Positions 814 to 19,770 of a DNA stretch of 31,218 nt are shown in pieces (position 1 is the first letter of the stretch; every line of letters starts with the position of its first letter). The notes below the pieces were generated by a model, which saw only the letters and a list, made by a program, of their open reading frames with translations, searched no databases and was not told the origin of the DNA. The stretch spans positions 1 through 31,218 of the IMG/VR virus record IMGVR_UViG_3300005470_000014; one strand, given 5' to 3'. The stretch is from a virus. Both the position numbers and the translations under genes were made by a program.

Positions 814-826
814 TTTAGTCACCCCC

Positions 827-1195
827 TTATGGTCTCCTCTGTTGGCCTTTTACGACGACTTTCACATCTCCCGTGGTCGGGGCTGTTGCTGCTTGAACGC
901 TCACTCTGATGAAATCCCATTGTGCATCTGTCTGGATGGATGCGACCTGAGTGGTGACGCTGCCGATGGGTATTTCATCGGTTCCGCTCAGCTCGGTGTC
1001 TATCGAGGGGTTGCTCATTGTTGAATCGTTGAACAGCGCCCCATATAGCTTGACATCAATGGCCTTATCGAGTGTGTTCACGATTGTGACGAGTATCTGC
1101 TCCACGTTCCTCAGGGGAATGACGGGGAATTTATACTCTGTGTCCACCCTGAGCTCGTAAGCTTCATTGTTCTGGTTGTTTCTATTTATTGGCAT
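827..1195 (-). CDS. Small structural protein, possibly capsid decoration or head accessory
   Basis: A 122-residue protein starting at ATG 1195 behind a good GGAGG site. It has no Cys, no membrane segment and no recognised motif. Alternating hydrophobic stretches such as VEQILVTIVNTLDKAIDVKLYGALF and a C-terminal VKVVVKG strand suggest a beta-sandwich. The gene sits 2 bp after the upstream gene and 13 bp before the fibre-like gene, in the capsid cluster, which suggests a virion role such as decoration or fibre attachment. The function is inferred only from position and predicted fold. Confidence 0.6.
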   Translation of the reverse strand: MPINRNNQNNEAYELRVDTEYKFPVIPLRNVEQILVTIVNTLDKAIDVKLYGALFNDSTMSNPSIDTELSGTDEIPIGSVTTQVASIQTDAQWDFIRVSVQAATAPTTGDVKVVVKGQQRRP

Positions 1196-1197
1196 TT

Positions 1198-1617
1198 TTA
1201 AGCCTCCTGATCATTTTTTAATTTCAATGCGGTCCACTCTCGGACCTCTTTCCACAGTCCGACATTTAACCCTCTGATGCGGGTCGGGTTCCTTTTGGCA
1301 TCGGACACACCCCTGGGATCCGGGAACTCTTTAGCGATAGCTTTCGCCGTGAGTGCTCCTATCCCTCTGATCTCTGTCAGACCTCCGGGCCACCAGTCCG
1401 CCTCTGTGGGCTCCTCCTCCACCTTGGGCTCCGGGTCGGGTCGGTCTCTTTTTCGGCGGTGTCCGGCCTGCTCGAAGAGTTTGAGCGTCGTCTCGTCAGT
1501 GGTATCGGGGACTTGAAACTCTCCCCTGCCATTGACGTGGACGATGGTTTTCTCCACTCCGAGCTTGATGGGCCACCCGACGGCCCTCGAACCTCGCTTA
1601 TGTTTGAACGTGATCAT
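1198..1617 (-). CDS. Capsid-cluster protein with C-terminal helix-hairpin-helix motif
   Basis: I chose ATG 1617 (GAGGTC upstream, 16 bp after the capsid gene), giving 139 residues; longer starts would overlap the capsid gene. Residues 1-60 look like a beta-rich domain, including GRGEFQVPDTTDETTLKLFEQAG. A charged Pro/Glu linker follows. Residues about 95-125 (LTEIRGIGALTAKAIAKEF) match a helix-hairpin-helix, a fold that usually binds DNA or mediates protein contacts. Small proteins of this kind are often found next to major capsid genes, and the exact role is unknown. Confidence 0.6.
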   Translation of the reverse strand: MITFKHKRGSRAVGWPIKLGVEKTIVHVNGRGEFQVPDTTDETTLKLFEQAGHRRKRDRPDPEPKVEEEPTEADWWPGGLTEIRGIGALTAKAIAKEFPDPRGVSDAKRNPTRIRGLNVGLWKEVREWTALKLKNDQEA

Positions 1618-1633
1618 TGACCTCGCCCCCTGC

Positions 1634-2773
1634 TTAGATGTTGTAAGCCTGGAGGTATCGGCCAAAGTAGCCGTATGCTCGGTCTATGTATGTGCTGAAC
1701 TGGAACAGAGCCACATTTTCGCTCAATCCATCTCTGGCGAGGGGGATCATGGACAGGGGGGCGAGGAGCTTCATCTTGCTGGCCCTCTTGTTGATGATGA
1801 ACACATCACCATCGTCGCCGACATCGGTGGAGTTGAATGTGTGGGTTCTTATGTTCTTTCCCGGGAATACGGGAACGCCTCTGATGGATATCCCTTTTCC
1901 ACCGTAGTTGATCTTATCATCGTTGATCATCCAGCGACCATAGAAAGCTGCATCTTCCTCAAGAGCATCGTACATGGTCTCGCTGCAGAGAATGATGAGG
2001 TCATTCGGGTTGACTGCATAACCTGACTGCAGCAGGGCGGCTATATAGCCCTTGATATCTCCGAGGAAATCACTGGCTACATCAGACCTATCCACGTTGG
2101 TCCCGGCGGTGGTGAAGGTCTTGGCCATTCCCTGAAAAGCATTTGTATCGTAGGGTGAGCCGTCGCTCCCGGCCTGGGAGGGGTCGCCGTATAACATACA
2201 CTGCTCAAGATACTGCAGACCTGCGGCTATCCTCTCGCCGAGTGTGGTATCCCTCAGATTGAGGAAGTGCTCAGAGCCCATCTGACCGAAATCAGATATC
2301 TGGGCCTTGTCGACAAATATTTTCATATCTGCGGACCTGACTGCGAAGGTCACATCCTTGGCAGTGGATAAGGTCAACACATCGGCCTCAGCCTGGAATC
2401 CCACAGGGTCGTCCCTGGCGCTGATGTTGTCCACCCTCACGGTGTATCCCTGGTATCCTTCATGGTCTATTAGGTCCAGAAAAGGAGTCTCTGACTGCAA
2501 CAGTGAGATGACCTCAGGGTCGAATATGATCGGAATAGCTGCGCTGACTCCGCTCATGGTCATGGCCTTCGTCTTCATGCTGGCTATTGCCTTGCTGATG
2601 TGCCCCTCATACTGTTTTTGCCAGTCGGGGGTATTTCTCAGGATGTCTTTGACTGTTGCCGTTCCCAGCCCGCCTTTTTGCTGCCTCATAAATCGATTGG
2701 AGACTGCCTTACCCCAGGTATTGTCAAAAAGTTCCTTTTCGGTGTAGTCCATTAGTTGCTCTCTTAGTGACAT
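1634..2773 (-). CDS. Major capsid protein, HK97-like fold
   Basis: A 379-residue protein from ATG 2773; a GTG at 2782 is an alternative that adds three residues. It follows the prohead protease, as in HK97-like viruses. Features consistent with the fold are a helical N-terminal arm (about residues 1-75), a segment resembling an E-loop/P-domain (GFQAEADVLTLSTAKDVTF), a long spine helix near LRDTTLGERIAAGLQYLEQCML, and a C-terminal stretch GISIRGVPVFPGK followed by DVFIINKRASKMKLLAP, which is typical of this family. It forms the icosahedral shell. Identification rests on gene order and overall pattern. Confidence 0.85.
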   Translation of the reverse strand: MSLREQLMDYTEKELFDNTWGKAVSNRFMRQQKGGLGTATVKDILRNTPDWQKQYEGHISKAIASMKTKAMTMSGVSAAIPIIFDPEVISLLQSETPFLDLIDHEGYQGYTVRVDNISARDDPVGFQAEADVLTLSTAKDVTFAVRSADMKIFVDKAQISDFGQMGSEHFLNLRDTTLGERIAAGLQYLEQCMLYGDPSQAGSDGSPYDTNAFQGMAKTFTTAGTNVDRSDVASDFLGDIKGYIAALLQSGYAVNPNDLIILCSETMYDALEEDAAFYGRWMINDDKINYGGKGISIRGVPVFPGKNIRTHTFNSTDVGDDGDVFIINKRASKMKLLAPLSMIPLARDGLSENVALFQFSTYIDRAYGYFGRYLQAYNI

Positions 2774-2814
2774 TTTTTTCACCTTCTTGTTTCAAATAAT
2801 TATAATTTCTGCTC

Positions 2815-3822
2815 TTAATACTCGAATTTCTTGAGGGCTCCTTCTCCCTCGCTCTGTTCCGGCGTATCTTCCGGCTTCGGTCCTCGCCCCTTGGGTGTCG
2901 CCTTGGGTTTTTCCTCAGGCTCCTGATCTGCTTGCTTTTTCTTGGGAGGTGGTGGGAGTTCCTTCTTACCCTTCAGTGCTTCGGCTATCATATCCTTTAC
3001 CTCTGCTCTGGTGAGTGCCTTTTCCTCCTCGTCCTCATCCTCATCAGGCTCCTCCTCATCAGGCTCCTCCTCATCCTCGCCCTTTTCCTCGTCGGATTCT
3101 TCCTGGTCCTCTTCTTCGTCTGGTTCTTCTTCCTCTTTGACGGCCTCTGATATCAATGATACCACGGCCTCGGGAGCGTTCTCCTGGAGCCAATTAAGTG
3201 CATCCTCCAGGGTCTCAATTTCTTTCTGTTCCTCAGTCATATTCTTCGCCTCGGTGTTATAAGTGTCAAATACATGCTTGTAAAGTGCTTTTTGATATGA
3301 GGACACTGCGTCGGGGTTGGCTGGCAGACCTACCGCAGATATTTCCACCAGGTCGCCTTCCTTATAATCATACCCGTCCTTATCGTTATCTGCCCACTTA
3401 TGAGCGACGACAGCGATGGACCAGGTTACAGGAGTATTAGACCCTATCAGGTCCTGGAGCTTTTCAACCTTATCCTGGACCGCCTTGGCATCAGAAAAGA
3501 CTGGCTTGGCATATAATAGGCCATCCTGGACCTCGGCCTCTGACCAATAACCCAGCTTGGAGAATACCGAATAAATTCCATTCTCATCCCAGCCATGATC
3601 TGCATAGAGAGCAACGTGGCCGGTGTTGATCTGTTCGGCCATACTTACCATAAATTGCTCGGTCATCCGGTCATTATCTCGGTCAAAATTAGAGCTGGAA
3701 ACCGGGACCTTTCCGTCGTCTCGCTTGGCTTTGAGGGTCTTGATATTCAAAGTATGAAAAAGTTTAAAATTTAAATTATGCGCCTCATTATCCATATAGC
3801 AATAATAATTATAACGTGTCAC
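2815..3822 (-). CDS. Prohead protease with acidic scaffold-like C-terminal half
   Basis: 335 residues from GTG 3822; an ATG 27 bases downstream is a possible start. Residues 25-175 resemble herpesvirus/HK97-type capsid maturation serine proteases: SSSNFDRDND (43-52), His76 in YADHGW, Ser135 in VTWSIAV and EISAVGLPANPDA (160-172). His76 and Ser135 are the probable catalytic residues. The C-terminal half contains a long run of Glu/Asp (about 230-275, PDEEE repeats), then Lys/Pro-rich sequence, which looks like a fused scaffolding region that would be cleaved during maturation. It lies directly upstream of the major capsid gene. Confidence 0.85.
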   Translation of the reverse strand: MTRYNYYCYMDNEAHNLNFKLFHTLNIKTLKAKRDDGKVPVSSSNFDRDNDRMTEQFMVSMAEQINTGHVALYADHGWDENGIYSVFSKLGYWSEAEVQDGLLYAKPVFSDAKAVQDKVEKLQDLIGSNTPVTWSIAVVAHKWADNDKDGYDYKEGDLVEISAVGLPANPDAVSSYQKALYKHVFDTYNTEAKNMTEEQKEIETLEDALNWLQENAPEAVVSLISEAVKEEEEPDEEEDQEESDEEKGEDEEEPDEEEPDEDEDEEEKALTRAEVKDMIAEALKGKKELPPPPKKKQADQEPEEKPKATPKGRGPKPEDTPEQSEGEGALKKFEY

Positions 3823-3837
3823 TGATAAAGGTTTTCC

Positions 3838-4191
3838 TTATTTTTTCAATGTCCCGTTAAAGTCGTATTTCTTGAAAATACGGTATATCTTCCGACGGTT
3901 AAAACCTAACTGGCGAGCCATCTCGGCCCGTGAATCACAGCGTTTATCCATCCGTTTCAAGAAATCCCGCATCGCTGCAGGGTCGCCCTTCAATGAGTTA
4001 TAGATCCGAAGAGGGTGATATATCTCCATTAACTCCCTCCAGCGTTTCTCAGTTATACAGAGCATACGGGCAATAAGCTGTTTATCTCGGTTCTGGTTAT
4101 CTAACCGGAGGAGCATGTCCTCGAACGATTCGCCTCGCCTCCTCAACATCGTAAATAATCCGTCACTAATTGGTATTTCCTCTTTTTGCAC
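3838..4191 (-). CDS. Small helix-turn-helix protein
   Basis: 117 residues from GTG 4191, with GAGGGA six bases upstream; 2 bp separate it from the preceding gene. The C-terminal part (about residues 85-110, SRAEMARQLGFNRRKIYRIFKKYDF) is a clear helix-turn-helix of Fis/resolvase type. The N-terminal part is charged and helical. It sits inside the capsid cluster, so it may regulate late genes or bind DNA during packaging. No closer family is recognised. Confidence 0.65.
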   Translation of the reverse strand: MQKEEIPISDGLFTMLRRRGESFEDMLLRLDNQNRDKQLIARMLCITEKRWRELMEIYHPLRIYNSLKGDPAAMRDFLKRMDKRCDSRAEMARQLGFNRRKIYRIFKKYDFNGTLKK

Positions 4192-4193
4192 TA

Positions 4194-4397
4194 TTATCCC
4201 TCTTTTTTAAATCGCTTTTTGGCTCGGTCAATTACAGCCTGAGCCACGGCTTTCTCAACGTCTGGACCTTCCATGTAATAATGGCATTCATCAGGCATCA
4301 ATGAGATGTTCTTTTTATCCTGGTCGGTCAGCTCAATCGTGATATAGTCGCCCTTTTTAGGGTCAAAAATCTTACTATCGTTTACTATCACACGCAT
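4194..4397 (-). CDS. Small hypothetical protein
   Basis: 67 residues from ATG 4397 behind GAGGGA. It begins with a beta-rich segment (MRVIVNDSKIF, YITIELTDQD) and ends in a basic helix (VIDRAKKRFKKEG). No known domain was recognised. It is the first gene after a pair of TAATATATTA palindromes, which may form a promoter, and it is followed 2 bp later by the HTH gene, so the two are probably co-transcribed. Confidence 0.55.
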   Translation of the reverse strand: MRVIVNDSKIFDPKKGDYITIELTDQDKKNISLMPDECHYYMEGPDVEKAVAQAVIDRAKKRFKKEG

Positions 4398-4419
4398 TTT
4401 ATCCCTCTTTGGTGGACCC

Positions 4420-4448
4420 TAATATATTAGGAATCCGGTAATATATTA
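4420..4448 (-). promoter_or_regulatory. Paired TAATATATTA palindromes, probable TATA promoter
   Basis: The 10-bp palindrome TAATATATTA occurs at 4420-4429 and 4439-4448, 19 bp apart, in the only gap between the portal and the next gene. The second copy overlaps the portal stop codon. Either could act as an archaeal TATA box for the 4397 gene and the protease/capsid genes downstream, or bind a regulator. Confidence 0.4.
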
Positions 4449-6821
4449 AATTCGTTTTAGCCTGATGTTGTCATATCTCGCAGCCAACTCCACTGCTGAG
4501 CTAGGCATATCCTCAGCCAATACATGACGCTGGTCGCATCTGCAGTTATATGGCTGGTCGCCTCCCACCACATACGTCTCCCGAGGGTAGTCTTTCGGCT
4601 GTCCCTTGAACCCTCCCGGTACTGTAAACTTGTCATACTTCCCCACGATCACGCCGTCCATCGCCTTATGCCATGCCCTGGTCCTATTCCCTGGAGTTGA
4701 ATCCCATTGTTTCCCTGCAATGAGGTTGGTAGACTCTGCGACCAGCTGAACGCTCTCACGCTTCGCCCCCATTACCTCGGTCCTTGCGATTAATCGGCTC
4801 TTGGCCTGGCTGATCTCGTCCACTCTCTCATCCAGCTCCTCGGTCAGCTCCTGGATGGTCATGTTCTCCTCTGCTGCCTGGGTCAATACTGTCCCTATCT
4901 GCTCCCTGACGGACTGCTCCACTGACATCGCCCTGACTTCGGCGGCCTCTAGCATCAGCCTGAGAGATGTTGACCTTTCGTTTATTGGAGGTGGTAAGAA
5001 CTCCACACGCTCCCCGGTCGCCTCCTCTATGCGGTCCTCTATCTCCTCGGCCTGACGAATGAACTCCAGCCGATATACCTCTCTGTTGCCCTCTACTATC
5101 CGGTTATAGATGCCTTCAGCGAGTCCAATGCCCCGGAGTATCTCCGCTATGGGTATGACGGCGGTAGCTCCCTTCTTGAACGACTTGGGCCAAATATCCC
5201 TGATCTCGGCCTCCGTCCCCTTCAGCTCGTCCCGGATAAACTTCTCGATATCCTTGGCCATGTCCTGACCGATATCAAACAGCTCCTTGTCATCGTTGAA
5301 CTGTTCCTCGTCCAGCCCTTCCATGTCCTCGCTCTTGGTCATCGGATAAGGAAAATGTTTTTTTTCACCCTCTGCTGGAAGTCGTTGCAATCCAAACAAA
5401 CCACCGCCTCCGGTATTGGGAGGAGGGGCTTCGGGCTTATTATCCATCGTGATAAACTCGTCATAGAACCACTCGGGATGTCGGTCTATCATGGTCTGAT
5501 AAAGTTTATGAGGCATATCACCCCAGGGGACTGGTTCCTCTCCCCTCTCTACCAGGACCTGGTTGAGTGTTACCAGCCCCTTGTCCAGGTCCACGTCCTG
5601 CCTGGCCCTCATCTGGTCATCAGCGTCTGGGTGGGTGATCTTGAACTTGAATACTAGTCCGCCCTTCATCCTCTGGTAAGGTTCAAGATAAGGCATTATC
5701 TGGCGGTTGATATCGTGCTCGATCTTGGAGAGTAGGGGCATGGTGGTCTTACGCCATACATCAACGCTGAACTGTTTCGTTCCCCCTGGTCGAGTTACCT
5801 CGGCGATATCACCTACCTCGTTGGCATTTAGCCCGAACATCATCCAGACCATCTTGACATACCACTGCTGGCTCTCAAGATATTGTAATTCTTTCATGGA
5901 CCCACGGAAAGGCGTATAATTGACGCCATCCATACCGCCTATTATCGGTAACTTGTGGGACTTGCCTTTTACCTCGGCCCTCCAGTAATCTATGACCTTG
6001 CTGACCTCGTCCTGTCCCGCTCCCATTATCGCCAGTATTCCCTCGGGTACCTCGTCATCCCTGAATGATTTTCTATTCACCAGGAGAGCGTTGAGGGATA
6101 TCTCCGCTAAGATTGCAGCATCAGATACCAGACCTCTGCTGTATGCGTCATAACTCCGGGGAGACAGGTCGGTCCACATGATATCCTTTCGATTGAACTC
6201 TACGGGCTTTAGTTGCGAAATACGGTATCGGTACGTGTTCTCTGCGACTCCATACTCAACTAGATACTGGCTGTCAGTATCACGCTGCAGAACTCCAGAC
6301 ATAACTCCACCGCCCCATTGATAATAAGCCGGATCCTTGCTGTCCGACGATGGGAGCTGTCCAAACTCGTCGATATTCTTCGTGAAGAGACCGGAATCCC
6401 TTACGAATAACTGGCCGATGGTGTTCTCTTTCCCATCATACCATACCTTTTCCATGCACCCGTTGCCAATGCTCAGCATATCCCCAGCATACTTGCATAA
6501 CAAAGACCCGAACGCCTCACCGTTCACATTGAACCGTCCATCAAAGAAATCGGCGATCTCATTGGCTGCCTTCTTATAGGCCTCGTCATCCTTGAACTCT
6601 TCCTCTGGCCGGACCTCCCAGAGCGTCTCGGCAAGCTGAGTCTTAATGATATTCATCGGCAGGGTTATCGCTGGAGATGTCTCTAGCTGGCGTATGCGGA
6701 CAATGTCCTCTTTTCTGGCGACTCCCTTGCCGAGGGTGTTAAAAAAATATCTCGGTTCCTGGGCTTTGGGGTCTCCCCCCACATTAATATTTTTCCTCGA
6801 GTATGGCGTGAATACTGGCAT
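4446..6821 (-). CDS. Portal protein fused to MuF-type minor head protein
   Basis: 791 residues from ATG 6821 behind AGGAGG. Residues 1 to about 470 match a phage portal: the ring through which DNA is packaged (PAITLPMNIIKTQLAETLWEV, a DDEVPEGILAIMG turn, and FGLNANEVGDIAEVTRPGG, typical of phage portals). A Gly/Pro linker (about 465-480) leads to a helical region and a C-terminal MuF-like domain: RTEVMGAKRES, KQWDSTPGNRTRAWH and the conserved NCRC at 759-762. MuF proteins are usually encoded separately next to the portal, so this is a fusion. It overlaps no neighbour and ends at the promoter-like repeats. Confidence 0.9.
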   Translation of the reverse strand: MPVFTPYSRKNINVGGDPKAQEPRYFFNTLGKGVARKEDIVRIRQLETSPAITLPMNIIKTQLAETLWEVRPEEEFKDDEAYKKAANEIADFFDGRFNVNGEAFGSLLCKYAGDMLSIGNGCMEKVWYDGKENTIGQLFVRDSGLFTKNIDEFGQLPSSDSKDPAYYQWGGGVMSGVLQRDTDSQYLVEYGVAENTYRYRISQLKPVEFNRKDIMWTDLSPRSYDAYSRGLVSDAAILAEISLNALLVNRKSFRDDEVPEGILAIMGAGQDEVSKVIDYWRAEVKGKSHKLPIIGGMDGVNYTPFRGSMKELQYLESQQWYVKMVWMMFGLNANEVGDIAEVTRPGGTKQFSVDVWRKTTMPLLSKIEHDINRQIMPYLEPYQRMKGGLVFKFKITHPDADDQMRARQDVDLDKGLVTLNQVLVERGEEPVPWGDMPHKLYQTMIDRHPEWFYDEFITMDNKPEAPPPNTGGGGLFGLQRLPAEGEKKHFPYPMTKSEDMEGLDEEQFNDDKELFDIGQDMAKDIEKFIRDELKGTEAEIRDIWPKSFKKGATAVIPIAEILRGIGLAEGIYNRIVEGNREVYRLEFIRQAEEIEDRIEEATGERVEFLPPPINERSTSLRLMLEAAEVRAMSVEQSVREQIGTVLTQAAEENMTIQELTEELDERVDEISQAKSRLIARTEVMGAKRESVQLVAESTNLIAGKQWDSTPGNRTRAWHKAMDGVIVGKYDKFTVPGGFKGQPKDYPRETYVVGGDQPYNCRCDQRHVLAEDMPSSAVELAARYDNIRLKRI

Positions 6822-6822
6822 T

Positions 6823-7173
6823 TTAATCCTCCTTATGGACTCCTATCTTTTGAGCTTGGTCTGAGAAGCACATCTCACCCATCACACGGAGCTCGTCAGG
6901 GTTCAGCTTCCTGACCTCTTTAAACTCCTCGGATACAAATACGAAATTGGCCTTTAAACTGATGCGCCGGCGTTTGGCCAGCTCGGACCAGTTCTGACTA
7001 TAGGCTATTGGGTCAATACCTCGTTTCAGAACAAATACATACATGTGACCCTTTGTATTTTTCATGGTGTGGATGACATTGATGGGTGAATACTGGCGGT
7101 ATAATGTATATCGTGGGAGCCTGAACAGCCTACATAAAAAATCGATTATCTTCTCCCTGAACGTCATGGTCAT
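6823..7173 (-). CDS. Hypothetical protein between terminase and portal
   Basis: 116 residues from ATG 7173; a second in-frame ATG at 7167 is possible, and an AGGA lies just upstream. The stop lies immediately before the portal start. The N-terminal segment is amphipathic and basic (FREKIIDFLCRLFRLPRY), and the middle is beta-rich (GHMYVFVLKR, LKANFVFVSEEF). No motif was recognised. Position suggests a head-assembly or packaging accessory. Confidence 0.5.
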   Translation of the reverse strand: MTMTFREKIIDFLCRLFRLPRYTLYRQYSPINVIHTMKNTKGHMYVFVLKRGIDPIAYSQNWSELAKRRRISLKANFVFVSEEFKEVRKLNPDELRVMGEMCFSDQAQKIGVHKED

Positions 7174-7244
7174 GCTTCCTATAATGGAATGGCGAGTTTT
7201 TGTTTATCCTGAGAACTCTAACTCAGTTAAATATTGTTGGAATG

Positions 7245-7313
7245 GGATGACGGGCCCGGCAGGTTGTGAATCTGCATGCGGAGGTTCAACCCTCCTGTCA
7301 TCTGGTGCGCCAG
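7245..7313 (+). ncRNA. tRNA-His-like RNA without a D-arm (tRNA pseudogene or tRNA-like element)
   Basis: A 7-bp acceptor-like stem joins GATGACG (7246-7252) to TGTCATC (7296-7302). An anticodon arm has stem 7259-7263/7271-7275 and loop TTGTGAA, with His anticodon GTG at 7266-7268. A 4-base variable region leads to a perfect 5-bp T-stem (7280-7284/7291-7295) with a 6-base loop TTCAAC. The D-arm is replaced by six bases (7253-7258). A hairpin CTGG-TGCG-CCAG follows at 7302-7313. It lies on the opposite strand to the flanking genes, in the only large gap of the packaging cluster. It could be a degenerate tRNA, an attachment-site relic or a functional tRNA mimic. Confidence 0.45.
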
Positions 7314-7353
7314 TGATTAATACCTACGTTTAGACCACGAGCCCATATGATTT

Positions 7354-8847
7354 TTACCCGAATAAACTAAATTTTGATCTCATATTATATTGTTTTGTGT
7401 ATTTATTTTTTTTATTTGGATTTTCCCCTTGATTTGATAGTTGCCCTATGGCTACCCCTTCGTATGGTGTGACGTCTGCTACAGATAGCATCAGCGAATC
7501 AGCGAAATCTGGACTCCCGTCCGGAGGGTCAATAATTTTTATTTTTCCTGCTGTTGTTATTTGCCAACGCATGTCTGCTAGTTGTTGCTTTAATTTTTCA
7601 TCGTTTGGTATGGATATTAAATTCTCCTCAAATAATTCTCGTAAATGCCAGTAATGTTGAGCCTTTTGATTTAAAAACCTATCTCTCGGAATGTCTTTTC
7701 CTCTTTTTTTTGCTAATTTATCTTTAATATTTTTAAATGGGGCCCTTGATACTCTTACCCCTATACTATTATATTCCAACTCCTTAAGCCTGGAATGAAC
7801 GCCAGACCCTACGCCAATGCTATCCACTCTCAACGGGTCAGCCCTACTGATTAAGGGGCATACTAATTTAACTATTTGCATGGGTTCATTACAATCTAAG
7901 ACTCGTTGCCATTTCGCTATTCTGCGAATTCCGTCCCAATATGACTTAGTCAATACAGTAAGGTCCGTCCCACTATCTGCAGGGTCTAATCCCCATATTA
8001 TATTACCATCAATGGACCAGTCGTTATTAGATGCACGTATGATATGATCCCAAGGTATAAGTGCATCTTCCGCTGAGTCTGGAAATTCGGAATCATACAA
8101 AATCTTAAACTCTGTGGGGCTCAAATTATCTCGCTGATCGTCTATTTTTTCCTGTGATATCCTGCCTTCCATTACTCCTTGTTCCCAAGAAATATGAATA
8201 TTCCTATATTTAGAGTCTTTCCATGCGGCATAGAACTGGTTTGATTTATCCCAGGGGTTTCCTATCTGCACTATTTTAGTCTCGCCAATCCCAGAATCCT
8301 CCTCCATCCGGCTAACCTTCGTCCTGAATACCTCATAAGACAAGAGGCATGACTCATCTATGATTATCAACTGCCCGCCATGACCCATTAACCTGTCCCC
8401 TGTACCATAGCCTGATAATATACGTATATGGCAACCGTTTTTCATGGTTATATGAGTTTTGCTAACTTCTGTTTTTAACCGTTCCACGCTGCTGGCCCTG
8501 GTATCCACCAATCTCCTTAATTCTGGACTTACTATAATATTCTCAGCCACATACTCCATAAGCTTGCTTGACTGAGCACGCTGTGGGCTAATCACATCAA
8601 TCTCATGGCCTTCATTGATATAGGCCCATAATAGAATAGCAATCGCCACGGCCCACGTTTTCCCGTAACGAGTGTGTGCTGTGATGCAAATCCTTCTATC
8701 TGGTTTGAATACTATAACCTTAATTATTTCTTCCTCACCCGGTGTTATCTCTTGCTGAAACAATATCTTACATAGTGTATATACGTCCTGATCATTGACG
8801 GCTTGGTCAATGGCACAATGCCTGAAAAACTCCACCGCTATGGTCAT
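7354..8847 (-). CDS. terL: Terminase large subunit (DNA-packaging ATPase/nuclease)
   Basis: 497 residues from ATG 8847 behind GAGGAGG. The N-terminal ATPase has a Walker A-like AHTRYGKT (57-64) and Walker B LIIIDES (160-166, Asp164, Glu165). The C-terminal RNase H-like nuclease has probable metal-binding aspartates at Asp288 (WGLDPADSG), Asp342 (VDSIGVGSGV) and in FADSLML near residue 450. It drives genome packaging into the prohead and cuts concatemers. It directly follows the small subunit. Codon third positions are visibly more A/T-rich than in neighbouring genes, suggesting a different origin or recent exchange. Confidence 0.92.
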   Translation of the reverse strand: MTIAVEFFRHCAIDQAVNDQDVYTLCKILFQQEITPGEEEIIKVIVFKPDRRICITAHTRYGKTWAVAIAILLWAYINEGHEIDVISPQRAQSSKLMEYVAENIIVSPELRRLVDTRASSVERLKTEVSKTHITMKNGCHIRILSGYGTGDRLMGHGGQLIIIDESCLLSYEVFRTKVSRMEEDSGIGETKIVQIGNPWDKSNQFYAAWKDSKYRNIHISWEQGVMEGRISQEKIDDQRDNLSPTEFKILYDSEFPDSAEDALIPWDHIIRASNNDWSIDGNIIWGLDPADSGTDLTVLTKSYWDGIRRIAKWQRVLDCNEPMQIVKLVCPLISRADPLRVDSIGVGSGVHSRLKELEYNSIGVRVSRAPFKNIKDKLAKKRGKDIPRDRFLNQKAQHYWHLRELFEENLISIPNDEKLKQQLADMRWQITTAGKIKIIDPPDGSPDFADSLMLSVADVTPYEGVAIGQLSNQGENPNKKNKYTKQYNMRSKFSLFG

Positions 8848-9426
8848 TTAATCCTCCTCGATCTTGATAACTCGGCCCAGCTTATACGGGCAGCTAGGGC
8901 AGACCTCCGCACGGAACTGGTTAAAAAAATGCTCCTTGTCCTCCTCGGTCCATTCCTGCATCTGCTGGATAATGTTCACCTGGCGGTTATCAATGTAATC
9001 GCCAGCTATCACCACGTTGATCCGCTTGATGTCGGCCTCGGTCTTGATGGCTGTCACCATGTCCCTGAGTATCCGCCTCTTATCCTCCAGCTCTCCATAC
9101 TGCATGGCCTCAATCCAGAGCTGTTCATATCGGTCATATATCTGTGCAATCTTATTGGTTTTATCGACTGCTTCGTTAATAATTCTGGCCTTTTTTCTTG
9201 CTACTGGCTTCCTTTTGTCGAGGTACTGTTTAAACTGTTTGACATACCGTTCATCCTTCAAATAAGCGTAAAACGTCCCCCTTGATATGTCAAGCCTCCG
9301 GGCCATTTCTGACTTGGAAAATTTACATCCTGTATCTGCCATTTCTAGTATAAGTTTCCCATATTCCCGGGCGAACTCTTCAGGGGTCAGAGCACAAAAA
9401 CCAGATTGGTGTCCGTTCTTACTCAT
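8848..9426 (-). CDS. terS: Probable terminase small subunit
   Basis: 192 residues from ATG 9426, overlapping the upstream gene by 4 bp and abutting terL. Residues 35-60 (FSKSEMARRLDISRGTFYAYLK) are a helix-turn-helix that would recognise the packaging site. The middle is a long, probably coiled-coil helix (KARIINEAVDKTNKIAQIYDRYEQLW), which fits small-subunit oligomerisation. The end carries CPSC. The identification rests on the HTH plus coiled-coil arrangement and the position before terL. Confidence 0.75.
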   Translation of the reverse strand: MSKNGHQSGFCALTPEEFAREYGKLILEMADTGCKFSKSEMARRLDISRGTFYAYLKDERYVKQFKQYLDKRKPVARKKARIINEAVDKTNKIAQIYDRYEQLWIEAMQYGELEDKRRILRDMVTAIKTEADIKRINVVIAGDYIDNRQVNIIQQMQEWTEEDKEHFFNQFRAEVCPSCPYKLGRVIKIEED

Positions 9427-9656
9427 TCCTCTCGCCTGGTCCTCGGGAATACGTTATCATGCCACTCAATGCTCAGGCCATACGTGAATATTGGGCTTTG
9501 TTCGGTGAGCTCGGTGATGATGCCGTCGGTCACATCCGCCTCGATGATCTTCACATCTTCGACGGGCTTATAAGTGGCGATACCGTCGCCTGTGAACAGC
9601 GCTGGGGTTACTGTGTGCTTATTCTTTTGTTGTTGGAATCCATGATTGTAGAACAT
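9423..9656 (-). CDS. Small hypothetical protein upstream of terminase
   Basis: I chose ATG 9656 (GGAGG eight bases upstream), giving 77 residues; a TTG at 9662 would add two. It overlaps the next gene by 4 bp and starts just before the stop of the previous small gene, so the three are translationally linked. The sequence is acidic in the middle (VKIIEADVTDGIITEL) and basic at the end. No domain was recognised. Confidence 0.55.
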   Translation of the reverse strand: MFYNHGFQQQKNKHTVTPALFTGDGIATYKPVEDVKIIEADVTDGIITELTEQSPIFTYGLSIEWHDNVFPRTRREE

Positions 9657-9658
9657 TG

Positions 9659-9814
9659 TCAAGAGCCTCCAGGGTGGCTTTTGGTAAGTATTCCGTTAAT
9701 AAATAGGGTGACTGGCTTATTGTAGGCTGCAGGTAGGTTGGCGTTCTTGGTGTCGTTCACGTAAGAATTGAAAAGAGCGTCTATGATGTGTTGGTCGCTG
9801 TCGCCGTCGGCCAT
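9659..9814 (-). CDS. Small hypothetical protein, first gene of the virion operon
   Basis: From ATG 9814 it encodes 51 residues (MADGDSDQHIIDALFNSYV, then KPVTLFINGILTKSHPGGS). No ribosome-binding site precedes this ATG. The frame continues upstream without a stop, and a GGAGGT at 9854-9859 is correctly spaced for initiation at ATT 9847, which would add KFKIRIGRTI. It resembles a small beta-alpha protein of unknown function. The coding frame is supported by overlap with the next gene's start. Confidence 0.5.
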   Translation of the reverse strand: MADGDSDQHIIDALFNSYVNDTKNANLPAAYNKPVTLFINGILTKSHPGGS

Positions 9815-9853
9815 AATGGTCCTGCCTATTCGGATCTTGAACTTAATACGGAT

Positions 9854-9890
9854 ACCTCCATTAACAGATAAGAAGATGAGTTTATTTAAG
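9854..9890 (-). promoter_or_regulatory. Probable promoter and Shine-Dalgarno site of the virion operon
   Basis: On the minus strand CTTAAATAAA (9881-9890) resembles an archaeal TATA box. About 25 bp downstream lies GGAGGT (9854-9859), followed six bases later by ATT 9847. This is the only evident promoter before the terminase genes and diverges from the early promoter at about 10.55 kb. Confidence 0.4.
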
Positions 9891-9918
9891 CCTATCGGTA
9901 ATGATAAAGAAAAATAAG

Positions 9919-10110
9919 AAGCGAGGGGGCGGTGATCGAGGCCGGGGAGGGGTTTGAGCGACCGCCCACCTCTGAGGTGTATCTCCTCCTAGTCAATAGG
10001 TGACTTCATGGCTGTTGCGGAAAAGCGTGCGAGGTTTGACTCACTCCCAAAAAAAGAGCGTGAACTTGGAGGTTTCCGCATCATTTGAGTGGGATAGAGT
10101 GACCTCGCTG
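9919..10110. ncRNA. GC-rich structured region, candidate non-coding RNA or origin element
   Basis: Perfect inverted repeats cluster here: GGGCGGT/ACCGCCC (9927-9933/9961-9967), CACCTC/GAGGTG (9967-9972/9974-9979), GCGGAAA/TTTCCGC (10017-10023/10073-10079) and GCGAGGT/ACCTCGC (10029-10035/10102-10108). The last two pairs interlock, so they are either a pseudoknot or alternative folds. The stretch is much more GC-rich than the adjoining AT-rich DNA and has no convincing gene; a 26-codon frame at 10008-10088 has no ribosome-binding site. Strand and function are unknown. Confidence 0.35.
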
Positions 10111-10173
10111 TACTAGGTTATGTCAAGACTTCTATAAAAAGTTTTCTCTTAGCTATATTTAACCCCTTGTTAA

Positions 10174-10292
10174 TTATAATATATTTAACTCCCCTGCCCC
10201 CCTTGTACTAAAATTACCATACTACTTTATATACTATAATATAAAACTATTAAATAAGTTATAAGGGGGTAGGGGGAGTAAATATAATATAA
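10174..10292. other. Candidate replication origin: long imperfect inverted repeat around AT-rich DNA
   Basis: The left arm (about 10174-10204) and right arm (about 10259-10292) are near reverse complements over about 31 bp. Each combines an AT part (TTATAATATATTTA versus TAAATATAATATAA) with a C-run or G-run (CCCCTGCCCCCC versus GGGGGTAGGGGG). The roughly 55 bp between them is almost entirely A/T. G-run inverted repeats beside a duplex-unwinding stretch are the layout of many archaeal origins, and this lies at the divergence point of the two transcription blocks near the helicase operon. Confidence 0.45.
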
Positions 10293-10421
10293 GAAATTGA
10301 AGGTTAATTATATTTTACCATGATTTTAACTATAGCCAGTTCACCATCTTACTCTCCTAAATCTTACAACTCCTTAACATTGCCAAATATATTTAACTTG
10401 CAGAACGGATGAAAAGATGAG

Positions 10422-10443
10422 GTCCTCTGTCTTTTTCGAGGAC
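10422..10443. repeat. Inverted repeat GTCCTC/GAGGAC
   Basis: A perfect 6-bp stem (10422-10427/10438-10443) with a 10-base loop lies in the gene-free control region. No T-run follows on the plus strand, so it is not an obvious terminator. Confidence 0.3.
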
Positions 10444-10461
10444 AAAAGCGGGCTACTCAAT

Positions 10462-10492
10462 GTTATTAACTTTTCAGCCAAATGTTAATAAC
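10462..10492. promoter_or_regulatory. Paired near-palindromes, possible operator
   Basis: GTTATTAAC (10462-10470) and its reverse complement GTTAATAAC (10484-10492) are centred 22 bp apart, close to two helical turns. Both are embedded in similar flanks (AATG before, TTT after). They lie about 60 bp upstream of the early TATA box, which suits a dimeric regulator. Confidence 0.35.
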
Positions 10493-10547
10493 TTTACAGG
10501 CACTATATTTAACGAGGGTCTAAATATATGCAATTTGAAGGGTAAAC

Positions 10548-10604
10548 TATATATAAAATATATTTGAATGATGGTTATTGAACTTGGAGGTTCTTGAACA
10601 TGAC
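10548..10604 (+). promoter_or_regulatory. Early promoter 1 with shared leader
   Basis: A TATA box (TATATATAAAATATA, 10548-10562) lies about 45 bp before ATG 10600. The leader TATTGAACTTGGAGGTTCTT (10576-10595) carries a strong GGAGGT site and is nearly identical to that at 16902-16921 in front of the second early operon. Confidence 0.65.
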
Positions 10605-12311: not shown

Positions 12312-12664
12312 CCAATAAAAAAACGAGAGATGTGGAAATAACACCAAACCAGAACTATTCCATCCTGACCAATTTCAACGAGGAGCAGGCTGAGAGAGTG
12401 GAGAGAGTAAAGAATGCCTCAGGACTGCCCTGGACCGATTACATCGATGAGGCCAGTATAATGAGGGAGAACGGGCAATATGACGCTATGGAGCATGTTA
12501 TCAATAACGTCATAGAGCTGGCCGAGCAGATGACGCCAGGCTCGGGAAAATTATTGAAAATATTTAAACCGTATCTAAAAAGCCCCCCTCAGGATGGATT
12601 TATGGACCGTCTGGAGGAACACATACAGTACATTTTCACGGGGCGGAAAAATGATACCGAATGA
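12308..12664 (+). CDS. Hypothetical protein preceding the MCM helicase
   Basis: 118 residues from ATG 12308, overlapping the previous gene by 4 bp and the MCM gene by 14 bp. The sequence is mainly helical and acidic (NEEQAERVERVKNAS, DAMEHVINNVIELAEQM). No domain was recognised. Tight coupling to the helicase gene suggests a partner role such as loader or regulator, but this is inference from position only. Confidence 0.6.
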   Translation: MTNKKTRDVEITPNQNYSILTNFNEEQAERVERVKNASGLPWTDYIDEASIMRENGQYDAMEHVINNVIELAEQMTPGSGKLLKIFKPYLKSPPQDGFMDRLEEHIQYIFTGRKNDTE

Positions 12665-14753
12665 GGCCCCTGACTGGTGGGAGGACCTTTTTGAGTCCTT
12701 GCCTGATCTGGAGGAAGAGGGCCAGCCCAGGAACTACAGGGCGGCCATCAGCGAGGCCATTACTGACTGTGGTAAAATACCTTATGCGGCCGTGGATGTG
12801 TATCTGTCAGATTTGGAGAAGATACACCAGGACCTCAGACCTGAGACCACCCGGGACCCTGTGGCCATGCTCACCAAGGGCGACGAGATATTAAACAAGG
12901 TAGGCCGGCGAGTAATGAAAGAGATGGATCCCGATGACCTTACCATCCAGCTCCTGCCTCAATTAAATATCAATCTCATCGGCGGGGATGCTGCGACCAA
13001 TAGACCTATTGGGTCCGTGAGGTATGCTGAGACTGGGACGCTGATATCATTCATAGGCATGATACAACGGACCTCAAGGCCCCAGTATAGAGCTTTGAAA
13101 GAAGGATATCAATGCGCCAGATGTAAGGTTCCCCAGGTGATCACCCAAAAATATTATATGGAGCATTTGGCCCCGTATGTATGTCCCAAAGACCTCGGAG
13201 GCTGCGGCAGAGCTACCAGCTCAACCTCGTTTAAACGGATACCTAAATTTGATATTTCCACCAGAACGCAGACCATAGTGGTCCAAGAGCCCTGGGAGGA
13301 GATAGGAGGAGCGAGTAATCGGGAAAAATTAGAATGTCATATCGATGGCGGGATGGTTGGACGGTTCCGGGTAGGGGAGCGGGTGAAGATCCACGGGGTG
13401 CTTGATATCCTGACCAACCAGCGGAGCAAGAAACCAGTATATCACATGTATCTCAGGGTCTTGGGCATTGAAAAGATAAAGGACCTATCCCTGGACATCT
13501 CACTCACCAAGGACATGGAGGCCATCAGGAAGATAGCCGCCTCAGAAAGTCCGATAAACCGGCTTACTCTGAAATTTGCCCCCTCGATAAAGGGGCTCAC
13601 TCATATCAAACGCTCGATATTATTGCAGATGTTCGGCTGTGACAGACAGATACATCAGCATACCAAAGAGGTAATGAGGGGAGACCTTCACGTCCTGATG
13701 GTGGGGGACCCTGCTACGGGTAAGACCGCTTTGCAGAAATTCACGGCCAACGTTACGCCCAGGGGGCGGTTCATTAACTGCTACAGGGCCACGGCTGCAG
13801 GGCTGACAGCTGCGGTCACAGAGGAAGGCGGTGAGTATGTACTGGACGCCGGGGCGATGGTCCTCGCTTCGGGAGGTATAGCCTGCCTCGAAGAGTTCGG
13901 GCGGTTAAAGGACGAGGTCAAGCCCGACCTATTGGACGCCATGAGCATCCAGGAGATAACAGTCAACAAGGCCAAGATACACGAGTCACTATCCACCATC
14001 ACGCCTGTATTGGCCGGATGTAACCCCAAGCATGGGAAATTTGCCGACGACAAGGATATCAGGCCCCAGATAGATATTGACGACCCTGTGCTGTCCCGGT
14101 TCGACCTGGTGTATATTATCAAGGATATCCCCAATGAGCTGCAGGATACCGTGGAATGTTCCCACATACTTAATTTTTGGTGCGGCGGCCAGTATGAGGA
14201 CTTTGATATCTCCATATTGCCTACGTATATACAGGAGGCCAAGAAGATAGACCCCTCCATGTATGACCCTGGTGACGGGGGATTATTTAATCGGCTCATG
14301 GAGAAAATAAAAACCAGTTATGTAATGATGCGCCAGCAGTATGATGCTTTTTCCGTGGTCCCCATTGACAAGCGTCATTTATTTACATTGATCAGGCTGG
14401 CCAAGGCCCACGCCCGGAGCCGTCTGTCCTCTGTGGTTAGCGAGGGCGACGTGGACGTGGCTGTGAGCATATTGATGGATTGTATAGCCGCTGCAGCTGA
14501 GGAGGGCGTGAGCGCTTCCCCTGAGGTCATAGATGAGGACCTACGGCAGGTCATAGATATGATAGAGGCTAATATGCTAAAGTTAATGAATATGAACGAC
14601 CGGTTTAAAATAGCCGTGCCTGGTCGGGCAATAGTTGAGTCAGTGAACGCCCACGGGTTCCAGGAAAAGACGGTTTGGAAGGGGATAAATATGCTGCTCA
14701 AGGATAATCGAATATGGAAGGTAGGGGACCAGGGGTATCACATATCGAGGTGA
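12651..14753 (+). CDS. mcm: MCM replicative helicase
   Basis: 700 residues from ATG 12651; an ATG at 12594 would add 19 residues that overlap the upstream gene. The N-terminal domain has a zinc site (CARC near 153, CPKDLGGC near 178) and OB-fold strands. The AAA+ core has Walker A GDPATGKT (about 353), a Walker B GGIACLEEF with Glu-Glu in place of the usual Asp-Glu, sensor-1 Asn in LAGCNPKHG, and the arginine finger SRFD (about 482). The C-terminus looks like a winged helix. MCM unwinds DNA as a hexamer in archaea, so it is the main evidence for an archaeal host and a self-encoded replication start. Confidence 0.93.
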   Translation: MIPNEAPDWWEDLFESLPDLEEEGQPRNYRAAISEAITDCGKIPYAAVDVYLSDLEKIHQDLRPETTRDPVAMLTKGDEILNKVGRRVMKEMDPDDLTIQLLPQLNINLIGGDAATNRPIGSVRYAETGTLISFIGMIQRTSRPQYRALKEGYQCARCKVPQVITQKYYMEHLAPYVCPKDLGGCGRATSSTSFKRIPKFDISTRTQTIVVQEPWEEIGGASNREKLECHIDGGMVGRFRVGERVKIHGVLDILTNQRSKKPVYHMYLRVLGIEKIKDLSLDISLTKDMEAIRKIAASESPINRLTLKFAPSIKGLTHIKRSILLQMFGCDRQIHQHTKEVMRGDLHVLMVGDPATGKTALQKFTANVTPRGRFINCYRATAAGLTAAVTEEGGEYVLDAGAMVLASGGIACLEEFGRLKDEVKPDLLDAMSIQEITVNKAKIHESLSTITPVLAGCNPKHGKFADDKDIRPQIDIDDPVLSRFDLVYIIKDIPNELQDTVECSHILNFWCGGQYEDFDISILPTYIQEAKKIDPSMYDPGDGGLFNRLMEKIKTSYVMMRQQYDAFSVVPIDKRHLFTLIRLAKAHARSRLSSVVSEGDVDVAVSILMDCIAAAAEEGVSASPEVIDEDLRQVIDMIEANMLKLMNMNDRFKIAVPGRAIVESVNAHGFQEKTVWKGINMLLKDNRIWKVGDQGYHISR

Positions 14754-14757
14754 ATAA

Positions 14758-15873
14758 ATGCTGACGGTGGGTTCATTGTTTTCAGGAATAGGAGGGATTG
14801 ATCTGGGGCTGGAAAGGGCGGGTATGAAAGTATTATGGCAGGTGGAAATAGATGAATATTGCAGAAGAGTGCTCGAAAAACACTGGCCGAAAGTGCCAAG
14901 ATACGGAGACATCACAGAACTCAGAGGGCGGGAGCTGCCTCCAGTTGACGTTATCGCCGGAGGTTTCCCCTGTCAGGACATCAGTGTCGCTGGTAAAGGA
15001 AAAGGTCTTGAGGGCGATAGGTCGGGGTTATTCTTTGAGATGGCCAGAGTTATTGAGGAAGCCAGGCCACGATACATTATCATTGAGAATGTCCCCAACC
15101 TTGTCAGACTTGGCATGGACCGAGTTGGTGAAGAGCTACGGCGCATTGGTTATAAACCGCTGCGACCTATACTTATTCAAGCTTCCTCGGTTGGAGCATT
15201 GCATAAAAGAGAAAGAATTTTCATTATTGCCCACCGCATCAGCATGGGACGGCAGAAGAGGACCGGCGAGGGAATACGACCCGAAGAGCAAGAGCCAAAA
15301 GGACAGGAACTTGAACACATTCGCCAGATGTTACCTGAGGGCTCAAACGTGGCCGACGCCAAGAGCCCAGGAGAAAGGGGATTATTGTTACAGCAAAGGA
15401 GACCATCAAAAGAAGGTTCTCACTCTATCAGGAAAAGTAAAGCTGTATCCCACTCCGGTGGCATCGGACGGAAAACGACAAAGCGAAACATACATGGGAG
15501 GGAACAAGACACTACCAGGAGCGGTGAAAACATACCCAACACCAATTGCCAGGGATTATCGGGCTCCTCATGGAAAAAACAGCGAAGCTTTCCAAAAAAG
15601 AATGGAACACCCCCGAGGGGTCAACTTAGTGGAAGAAATACAGCGAAGAAACTTGGGAGTTGGTGGTCAGCTGAGTGCCGACTGGGTCGAGCTCCTGATG
15701 GGGTTTCCTGTGGGTTGGACAGTTGTGGAGGATGGGAATGCGGAATAGATAGGGTAGCGGTGAAACAAAAGGATAGAGTCAATCGATTGAAGGGATTAGG
15801 TAACGCTGTGGTCCCACAAGTGGCCGAGATAGTAGGCAGGATATTAATAGACTTCGACGAGGTGAATGGATGA
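14758..15873 (+). CDS. DNA (cytosine-5) methyltransferase
   Basis: 371 residues from ATG 14758, 4 bp after the helicase. Motif I FSGIGGIDLGL (8-18), motif IV GGFPCQDIS with catalytic Cys72, motif VI ENV (110-112), motif VIII HKRERIFIIAHR (149-160) and a C-terminal motif X-like RLKGLGNAVVPQVAE are all present. The target-recognition region (about 165-325) contains NVADAKSPGERG and IPNTNCQG segments usual in phage enzymes. It methylates cytosines, probably to evade host restriction. A second, conserved-looking frame overlaps the recognition region (see 14852-15748). The gene is solitary; no restriction nuclease is nearby. Confidence 0.9.
   Translation: MLTVGSLFSGIGGIDLGLERAGMKVLWQVEIDEYCRRVLEKHWPKVPRYGDITELRGRELPPVDVIAGGFPCQDISVAGKGKGLEGDRSGLFFEMARVIEEARPRYIIIENVPNLVRLGMDRVGEELRRIGYKPLRPILIQASSVGALHKRERIFIIAHRISMGRQKRTGEGIRPEEQEPKGQELEHIRQMLPEGSNVADAKSPGERGLLLQQRRPSKEGSHSIRKSKAVSHSGGIGRKTTKRNIHGREQDTTRSGENIPNTNCQGLSGSSWKKQRSFPKKNGTPPRGQLSGRNTAKKLGSWWSAECRLGRAPDGVSCGLDSCGGWECGIDRVAVKQKDRVNRLKGLGNAVVPQVAEIVGRILIDFDEVNG
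14852..15748 (+). CDS. Overlapping +1 frame encoding an alternative methyltransferase target-recognition domain
   Basis: This frame is open for 298 codons inside the methyltransferase gene. From about 15224 it reads like the C-terminus of another common group of phage C5 methyltransferases: LLPTASAWDGRRG, WPTPRAQEKGDY, YPTPVASDGKR, YPTPIARDYRAPHG, then GGQLSADWVELLMGFPVGWT near the end. The first 120 codons do not look protein-like, so expression would need a +1 (or -2) frameshift from the main frame around motif VIII (about 15200-15230) or internal initiation. No ribosome-binding site is evident. It may instead be an evolutionary relic of an ancient frame change. Confidence 0.35.
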   Translation: MNIAEECSKNTGRKCQDTETSQNSEGGSCLQLTLSPEVSPVRTSVSLVKEKVLRAIGRGYSLRWPELLRKPGHDTLSLRMSPTLSDLAWTELVKSYGALVINRCDLYLFKLPRLEHCIKEKEFSLLPTASAWDGRRGPAREYDPKSKSQKDRNLNTFARCYLRAQTWPTPRAQEKGDYCYSKGDHQKKVLTLSGKVKLYPTPVASDGKRQSETYMGGNKTLPGAVKTYPTPIARDYRAPHGKNSEAFQKRMEHPRGVNLVEEIQRRNLGVGGQLSADWVELLMGFPVGWTVVEDGNAE

Positions 15874-16608: not shown

Positions 16609-16830
16609 ATGTCACTGAAGAACAATTTCAATATCACAATAACGGCCTCCAATAATGAGGTCAGACGGATCATTTTCGAGAAAATATATAATTTCCTCTC
16701 GAATGAAAAAGACATCGGACTGGTCAGTCATGGGGTCAGTTCACACAGGCGAGAGGCTCACATCTCAGCCGATTATGACGGGGAAATAAAAAACAAAGGC
16801 GGGGCGTGGGACAGAGGGAAATGGGGATGA
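16609..16830 (+). CDS. Small hypothetical protein
   Basis: 73 residues from ATG 16609, one base after the resolvase stop, with AGGAGAG upstream. The first half reads as strand-helix (NNFNITITASNNEVRRIIFEKIYNFL), the second is His/Arg and Gly rich (SSHRREAHISADYDG). No domain was recognised. It is the last gene before a new promoter, so it ends the first early operon. Confidence 0.55.
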   Translation: MSLKNNFNITITASNNEVRRIIFEKIYNFLSNEKDIGLVSHGVSSHRREAHISADYDGEIKNKGGAWDRGKWG

Positions 16831-16842
16831 TAAATATATTTT

Positions 16843-16925
16843 AACTATCATTAAATATATTTCAAGGAATAACATATATATAGTAGGGTGTCATTCATTA
16901 CTATTGAACTTGGAGGTTCTTAAGC
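16843..16925 (+). promoter_or_regulatory. Early promoter 2 with shared leader
   Basis: A TATA box (ACATATATATAG, 16871-16882) lies about 45 bp before ATG 16926. The leader TATTGAACTTGGAGGTTCTT (16902-16921) is the same 20 bases as at promoter 1. Upstream, TTAAATATATTT-like sequence occurs twice (about 16830-16862). Confidence 0.65.
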
Positions 16926-17298: not shown

Positions 17299-18209
17299 AC
17301 ATGTTCAAGAAAAATATAGAGCTGGGAACCATAGAAAACCTGGAGGACTATGAGGCTGCCGTGGCCCTTAAAGAGCGGATAGAGGATATGATAGACGAGT
17401 ATGGAACCAACAATATCGCTCAAGTCGATATGTTCTGGGAGCATCAGGACCTGGTCAAGAAATATAATGAACTGCAGAAACAGATGGACCACCGAAAGAC
17501 CAACGTCGAACGCCTCCCACAGTTGGGCCTCGACCTTGGAATGAAGTGCGACGATTTCCGAGACCGATGGGCTGAGATAAGGCAGGCTGTATATACTTTC
17601 GAAGAACTGCGAAAGGAAGAAAAGGTGGAGATGTTGGTCAATTCAGATGTAGCATTGACGACGGCAGAAATGACTCAGGGCCAGGCGAATAAACAGGCTG
17701 AGGAAAAGCTGGAGGAAATAAAAGAGGAGGAGCCAGACATCACCGCTGATATGATGGACAGGGTCCGAGAGATATACGCCGAGTCGGAGAATGATCAAAA
17801 GGCATGGCGTCAAGTGATGAGGGCGTTCGGATCTCTGAAAGGTAAGATACTCAAGGATAATTATCTGGCAGAGCGAGAGCACGCCGAGGAGATGGCGAAG
17901 AATGAGCAGAAAGAAGAGAGAATAGAACCGGATAATGTGGAAGTGGCGACAGCTGAGAAAAAGGTGGAGAAAAAGAAAGCCAAGGCGGAACCCAAGACCA
18001 TGACCGACGCAGAGATGGTCAAGATGGCCATAGACGAGGTTCTGCCGAAGATAGGACCTAAGGACAGCGTAAGGCCCAAGATAATACAGGCGCTGGAAAG
18101 TAAACGCATTATGTTCGAGCTGACACAGGTGACCAAGGTCCTGGAGATGTTGATGGATGAGGCTGTGATATATCAACCTGTCCTCAATGGTGATTTTTTC
18201 AAAGTGTGA
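17295..18209 (+). CDS. Large coiled-coil early protein
   Basis: 304 residues from ATG 17295; ATG 17301 is an alternative. Long charged helices (residues 15-75 and 105-225, including KLEEIKEEEPD and AEKKVEKKKAKAEPK) predict extended coiled coil. The last 75 residues (MTDAEMVKMAIDEVL to VYQPVLNGDFFKV-like end) resemble a small helical or winged domain. No family was recognised; recombination or single-strand-binding accessory roles are possible. Confidence 0.65.
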   Translation: MNMFKKNIELGTIENLEDYEAAVALKERIEDMIDEYGTNNIAQVDMFWEHQDLVKKYNELQKQMDHRKTNVERLPQLGLDLGMKCDDFRDRWAEIRQAVYTFEELRKEEKVEMLVNSDVALTTAEMTQGQANKQAEEKLEEIKEEEPDITADMMDRVREIYAESENDQKAWRQVMRAFGSLKGKILKDNYLAEREHAEEMAKNEQKEERIEPDNVEVATAEKKVEKKKAKAEPKTMTDAEMVKMAIDEVLPKIGPKDSVRPKIIQALESKRIMFELTQVTKVLEMLMDEAVIYQPVLNGDFFKV

Positions 18210-18258
18210 CCCGGTAGGTTAAAGGCCACCCTGGGAGGTTCAAGGGCCTCCCTCCGGG
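18210..18258 (+). promoter_or_regulatory. Stem-loop structure before the next gene
   Basis: Nested perfect stems start at the previous stop codon: outer CCCGG/CCGGG (18210-18214/18254-18258) and inner GGGAGG/CCTCCC (18233-18238/18247-18252) with an 8-base loop. The downstream ATG 18263 has no other ribosome-binding site, so the GGGAGG in the hairpin may matter for control of translation. Termination is less likely, as no T-run follows. Confidence 0.4.
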
Positions 18259-18262
18259 CTTG

Positions 18263-18451
18263 ATGATAGAAGTGGGCGACAAGGTAAGGTTAGCAGATAG
18301 TTATATCCTGCGAGTACTAGGTCATAATAGGCTCCGTCTACCCAGGGACGAGGGGGTCGTCAGGAGAGTGGAGAACGGGAGGGCTGACGTGGAGATAAAA
18401 GGCCGGATGTATAGATGTATTGAATTAGAGAACATAATAACAGACAGGTGA
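18263..18451 (+). CDS. Small SH3/KOW-like protein
   Basis: 62 residues from ATG 18263; a TTG at 18260 adds one. The sequence IEVGDKVRLADSYILRV, EGVVRRVENGRADVEIKG and MYRCIELENI has the strand pattern and Gly placement of a small SH3-like or KOW beta-barrel. Such domains bind nucleic acid or proteins. It lacks a standard Shine-Dalgarno sequence and follows a strong hairpin. Confidence 0.55.
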   Translation: MIEVGDKVRLADSYILRVLGHNRLRLPRDEGVVRRVENGRADVEIKGRMYRCIELENIITDR

Positions 18452-18455
18452 AATA

Positions 18456-18557
18456 ATGATATATTGCGGAAAACATGGGACCCATTACGAGACCGGATAC
18501 TGCCCGGACTGCGTAGCCGAATGGGAGGAAGGCAGTAAAATAGATGTGATTGATTAG
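18456..18557 (+). CDS. 33-residue Cys/His protein
   Basis: From ATG 18456, five bases after the previous stop, with AGGTGA upstream. Residues MIYCGKHGTHYETGYCPDC contain C-H-H-C-C in zinc-finger spacing, followed by an acidic tail. It ends with TAG, which is rare as a stop in this window. It is one of the small metal-binding proteins of the early region. Confidence 0.5.
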   Translation: MIYCGKHGTHYETGYCPDCVAEWEEGSKIDVID

Positions 18558-19699: not shown

Positions 19700-19770
19700 A
19701 GGGCCGTGGTGTAACGAGAGCACGCTTGACTTTGAATCAGGCGGAGAGGGTTTGACTCCCTCCGGCCCTA
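19700..19770 (+). tRNA. tRNA-Gln (anticodon TTG)
   Basis: The 7-bp acceptor AGGGCCG/CGGCCCT is perfect with discriminator A at 19770. The anticodon arm CTTGA/TCAGG has loop CTTTGAA, with anticodon TTG. The T-arm GAGGG/CCCTC is perfect, with loop TTTGACT. The D-arm (GTGT/GCAC) is short, its 7-base loop AACGAGA lacks the usual GG, and T-loop position 56 is T instead of C, so the usual D-loop/T-loop contact is altered. No CCA is encoded. It lies between convergent operons. Confidence 0.85.

Follow-up and report, generated by a model that had tools for sequence, protein, structure and literature searches.

Archaeal replication origins typically consist of an A/T-rich region flanked by origin recognition boxes (ORBs) and located beside an initiator gene (PMC4010727; PMC5333045). 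In oriC1 of Haloarcula hispanica, the A/T-rich region lies between inverted ORBs whose G-strings are essential, and a further split G-rich inverted repeat, GGGGAGGGGG/CCCCCTCCCC, acts as an enhancer (PMC3936714). A second familiar arrangement is that of the plasmid and phage iteron origins, in which several identical short repeats stand beside an A/T-rich stretch. How replication starts in archaeal tailed viruses that carry their own MCM helicase is poorly known. The DNA described here, a stretch of 31,218 bases referred to as the window, is the complete IMG/VR virus record IMGVR_UViG_3300005470_000014, and its region 10154-10513 is predicted, with a probability of about 0.65, to be the replication origin of such a virus. 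The features of the region and of its surroundings are collected in Table 1.

Table 1. Coordinates of the features in and around the candidate origin (positions of the window).
Feature	Position	Strand	Remarks
TerS (terminase small-subunit) gene	8848-9426		
Probable TATA element CTTAAATA, leftward (terminase/structural) operon	9883-9890	-	
Left arm	10154-10206	+	TATATTTAAC at 10154 and 10180; GTTAATTATAATATATTTAAC at 10169-10189; CCCCTGCCCCCC at 10191-10202
A/T-rich core	10205-10258	n/a	45/54 A/T (83%), 9 G/C; presumed unwinding element
Right arm	10259-10312	-	GGGGGTAGGGGGAG at 10265-10278; degenerate half-site AGTAAATATA; GTTAATTATA at 10303-10312
Third exact TATATTTAAC copy	10388-10397	+	Right of the arms
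Small palindromic words ATGTTATTAAC and ATGTTAATAAC	10460-10492		22 bp apart; GTTAA/TTAAC core in common
Fourth exact TATATTTAAC copy	10504-10513	+	
Probable TATA element, rightward (MCM) operon	10545-10558	+	Identified by eye
Ribosome-binding site GGAGG with ATG	ATG at 10600	+	Downstream of the 10545 TATA element; identified by eye
MCM helicase gene	12594-14753	+	Operon neighbouring the candidate origin

The minus strand of the window encodes terminase, portal/head morphogenesis, protease, major capsid and tape-measure proteins, while the plus-strand operon encodes the MCM helicase, a C5 DNA methylase and a weak RuvC-like nuclease. Since the portal is 34% identical to that of Halorubrum tailed virus 28 (HRTV-28) and the MCM shows 24-30% identity to the MCMs of haloarchaeal, Methanocaldococcus and Altiarchaeum viruses, the window most likely comes from an archaeal tailed virus, an uncultured one. 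HATV-3 and MFTV1 combine, in the same way, a Caudoviricetes gene content with an MCM of their own (28-30% identical to that of the window), but the resemblance of these viruses, and of HRTV-28 through its portal, lies at the distant protein level only. Tail-fibre repeats are present at both ends of the window, an arrangement that a circular or permuted genome could produce. Scans of IMG/VR with the single proteins MCM, TerL and portal returned either one near-identical contig (L002, IMGVR 3300005512_001071) or nothing, and no provirus was found in genome-contig scans with the portal and RuvC.

The most conspicuous element of the region is an inverted repeat. By gapped self-alignment, 10154-10206 pairs with 10312-10259 about a dyad near 10233, with a score of 29, whereas dinucleotide shuffles gave a mean of 13.0 and a maximum of 21 (0/500 reached 29); the repeat ranks first in the window at all four radii tried. 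The original prediction had described arms of 31 bp. The repeat was confirmed, and no other in the window is as strong, but its arms extend over about 53 nt and match imperfectly, with 73% complementarity over 48 nt when aligned without gaps. The C-run CCCCTGCCCCCC on the left and the G-run GGGGGTAGGGGGAG on the right both face the core. This core, which had been called almost pure A/T, is in fact 83% A/T, and no other 54-bp stretch of the window is less stable, the stability minima starting at 10209, 10218 and 10133 for lengths of 54, 100 and 200 bp, respectively. Very low stability was also noted at 16829-16885, an A/T-rich spot where two TATATTTA-like sites lie on the minus strand. Rfam matches over the repeat were rejected, as they were sub-threshold, of miRNA-precursor type and expectable from any A/T-rich hairpin.

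The region is also rich in repeated words. Four exact copies of TATATTTAAC, all on the plus strand, start at 10154, 10180, 10388 and 10504, as had been noted originally. Allowing up to one mismatch raises the count in the window to 12 sites, where 1.9 would be expected; none of 100 shuffles reached this number, and 7 of the 12 fall inside 10154-10513. Among 2000 dinucleotide shuffles of 10100-10560, a single one contained any 10-mer at least four times, and the 5-mer GTTAA/TTAAC is found 10 times within 10150-10520, about fivefold the 2.0 of the shuffles, none of which reached 10 in 1000 trials. The half-sites GTTAAWTATA occur in both orientations and in mirror-image order on either side of the core, and two of them form the 21-bp near-palindrome GTTAATTATAATATATTTAAC at 10169-10189. 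This palindromic arrangement had escaped the original prediction, which named the copies iterons. The repetition itself stands, as it exceeds the shuffles; the use of the term in its plasmid sense is questionable for copies so short, so irregularly spaced and found in both orientations. The label thus understates the symmetry and overstates the regularity, and GTTAAWTATA half-sites facing both ways are a better description of the repeats than a regular array.

When compared with H. hispanica oriC1, the window shares an A/T-rich stretch, the presumed unwinding element, between inverted elements, as well as G/C-runs paired on both sides, the split run being GGGGAGGGGG in oriC1 and GGGGGTAGGGGG in the window. 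The differences lie in the words and in the initiator gene. No ORB dyad TTCCAnnnGGAAA was found within 10150-10520 with up to 2 mismatches, and the whole window holds 31 such sites against 36.9 expected. The words flanking the core are the A/T-rich GTTAAWTATA, so that the paired C/G-runs flank these instead of an ORB dyad, and the runs adjoin the core directly, the left one reading C and the right one G. The initiator gene beside an ORB-type origin is cdc6 or whiP; no cdc6 gene adjoins the region, Orc1/Cdc6 giving no match at E 1 in the window record or in a relative discussed below (L007). Because neither the ORB dyad nor a recognised initiator gene was found, the locus was not filed as an ORB origin of the classical type. 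In comparison with iteron origins, the identical repeats beside an A/T-rich stretch are likewise present in the window, but the copies are only 10 bp long, they are spaced at 26, 208 and 116 in place of regular direct repeats, they occur in both orientations at one mismatch, and no Rep protein of a known family was recognised among the plus-strand proteins.

A further comparison is offered by L007 (IMGVR 3300009320_000043), a 41-kb virus that has in common with the window the MCM (34%), RuvC (39%) and two further genes. Scans based on MCM alignments yielded about 50 other MCM viruses, and among these L007 alone has several other replication genes in common with the window. The strongest inverted repeat of L007 lies at its own operon divergence (6476-6817), in an A/T-rich region; it scores 22, the next one 16 over the scanned pieces of the 41-kb record, and shuffles reached 22 in 2/500 cases at radius 80 and in none at radius 100. 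In each virus, 63 nt separate the ungapped arms. However, the L007 repeat carries its core-side GGGGGG on one arm only, plus two flanking copies of TTATGTTTACATAA, a word for which the window has no site with 2 mismatches or fewer. The two viruses have in common a layout and not a sequence; as to conservation of the arms in relatives, which had been put forward as a check, L007 has the layout but neither the words nor the second G-run. The strict order of C-run, A/T core and G-run at the strongest inverted repeat was seen in 0 of some fifty other MCM-virus loci, and HATV-3, MFTV1 and the other fetched loci differ from the window in lacking the paired runs there. Two other genes of L007 were recorded. 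A 563-aa protein with ParB N-terminal and HTH domains is encoded at 7903-9594, two genes upstream of its MCM, and its ParB-like family gave no match among the Pfam-scanned window proteins; an APS-kinase/cytidylyltransferase-like protein is encoded at 17684-18532, at the operon convergence.

Replication of the virus most likely starts in this region, which is well predicted as an element of a familiar kind. An origin fits best the combination of lowest stability, strongest inverted repeat, enriched half-site words, core-facing G-runs, a position between divergent operons and an adjoining MCM operon. The placement at this divergence, already given in the original prediction, agrees with the gene layout. 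The layout found in L007, the one distant relative available, and the analogy with the experimentally studied H. hispanica oriC1 (PMC3936714) point in the same direction. Against an origin stand the absence of the ORB dyad and of Orc1/Cdc6 or another recognised initiator, the words that differ from those of L007, the one-sided G-run of that virus and the lack of the strict run pattern at the other fetched MCM-virus loci, a single syntenic relative making for a thin comparison. GC skew lends no independent support. The cumulative GC skew, which had been suggested as a check, has its minimum near 9.5 kb and its maximum near 19.5 kb, both of which coincide with gene orientation, and no sign change was found at 10.2 kb at fourfold-degenerate sites. 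As the inflection tracks gene orientation and is gone at fourfold sites, GC skew was rejected as origin evidence.

Regarding the mechanism, we infer that a protein would attach to the GTTAAWTATA half-sites, be it the Orc1/Cdc6 of the host or a DNA-binding protein of the virus that escaped recognition, with the G-runs orienting or strengthening this binding. The A/T core would then melt, and the viral MCM could be loaded at the melted core and depart in both directions, so that the forks would run with the transcription of both operons. In agreement with the original prediction, no initiator was recognised: Pfam/NCBIfam scans of the plus-strand proteins of the window returned no Rep or other initiator. 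For the candidate that had been named, the AT-hook protein encoded at 11802, the Pfam match (E 0.046) falls below the cut-off. AlphaFold models for 11802 and for the 17295 product are of low confidence (mean pLDDT 60 and 49, respectively) and were not carried into fold searches. A more speculative and rather unlikely version is an origin of its own type, in which an unrecognised viral initiator acting on GTTAAWTATA would load the viral MCM with no need of host Orc1/Cdc6; in related viruses the word and the initiator would have changed in step under a conserved layout. The window, like L007, holds no recognisable initiator, and a compact, well-delimited candidate origin beside few early genes makes the question of initiation testable by plasmid and binding assays.

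The main alternative, though an unlikely one, is a transcription control region: a regulator from among the small early-operon proteins would switch the two divergent operons, early and late, with the half-sites as its operators, and an extra promoter would lie in the core. A large intergenic A/T-rich region has the look of a regulatory region too, this one lies between two divergent operons, several small early proteins have no assigned function, and the probable early TATA element at 10545 follows the fourth TATATTTAAC copy (10504) at a distance of about 40 bp. The core itself contains a consensus TATA box, TTTATATA, at 10226, and therefore leaves room for an extra promoter, yet no gene of more than 38 codons begins just past it. 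Moreover, operators need neither the lowest stability of the window nor paired G-runs. With TATA-like elements at about 9890 (minus strand) and 10545 (plus strand), the inverted repeat sits between the probable promoters, more than 230 bp away from both, rather than on them, and no long open reading frame covers 10120-10590; this noncoding position favours an origin. Both roles, origin and operator, could coexist in the region.

It is very improbable that the region is a packaging initiation (pac/cos) site. The TerS gene lies about 0.7 kb downstream, and the noncoding stretch in between, at about 9920-10115, is structured and G+C-richer and could itself be such a site, but the inverted repeat is located upstream of the entire late operon, neither in nor beside the TerS gene, and pac/cos sites typically lack an A/T-rich core between mirror-image G-runs. 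The 9920-10115 stretch folds better than its shuffles (z -2.7), and a small RNA or a packaging site is possible there.

The near-clonal contig L002, the only match in a scan with the arm word, bears on the last alternative. From 116 to 10276 it differs from the window by zero substitutions and one 15-bp gap, an indel corresponding to 3038-3052 of the window, in an acidic stretch of the protease gene. Four changes follow within 10277-10294, in the right arm, and from 10337 the contig is an inverted copy of the left flank and stops 14 nt later. Its inverted repeat scores 30 against 29 in the window, so the symmetry is kept despite the changes in the right arm. Recombination at this junction, a variant form of the arm or an artefact of the contig end could each account for the divergence. 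That the region is a recombination or inversion site, its right arm exchanged between variants and L002 being a flipped or recombined form, is the least probable reading of all, since a tyrosine integrase was found in neither the window record nor L007 and the contig, ending so soon after the divergence, may reflect an error of assembly or a template switch at the shared 6-nt word TATAGC; recombination here need not exclude an origin, because origins are also common recombination points.

Two further observations concern the plus strand of the window. The C5 DNA methylase gene (14758-15873) is overlapped by a same-strand open frame of 298 aa at 14852-15748, and a tRNA-Gln gene (anticodon TTG) is found at 19700-19771, exactly where the two converging operons end.
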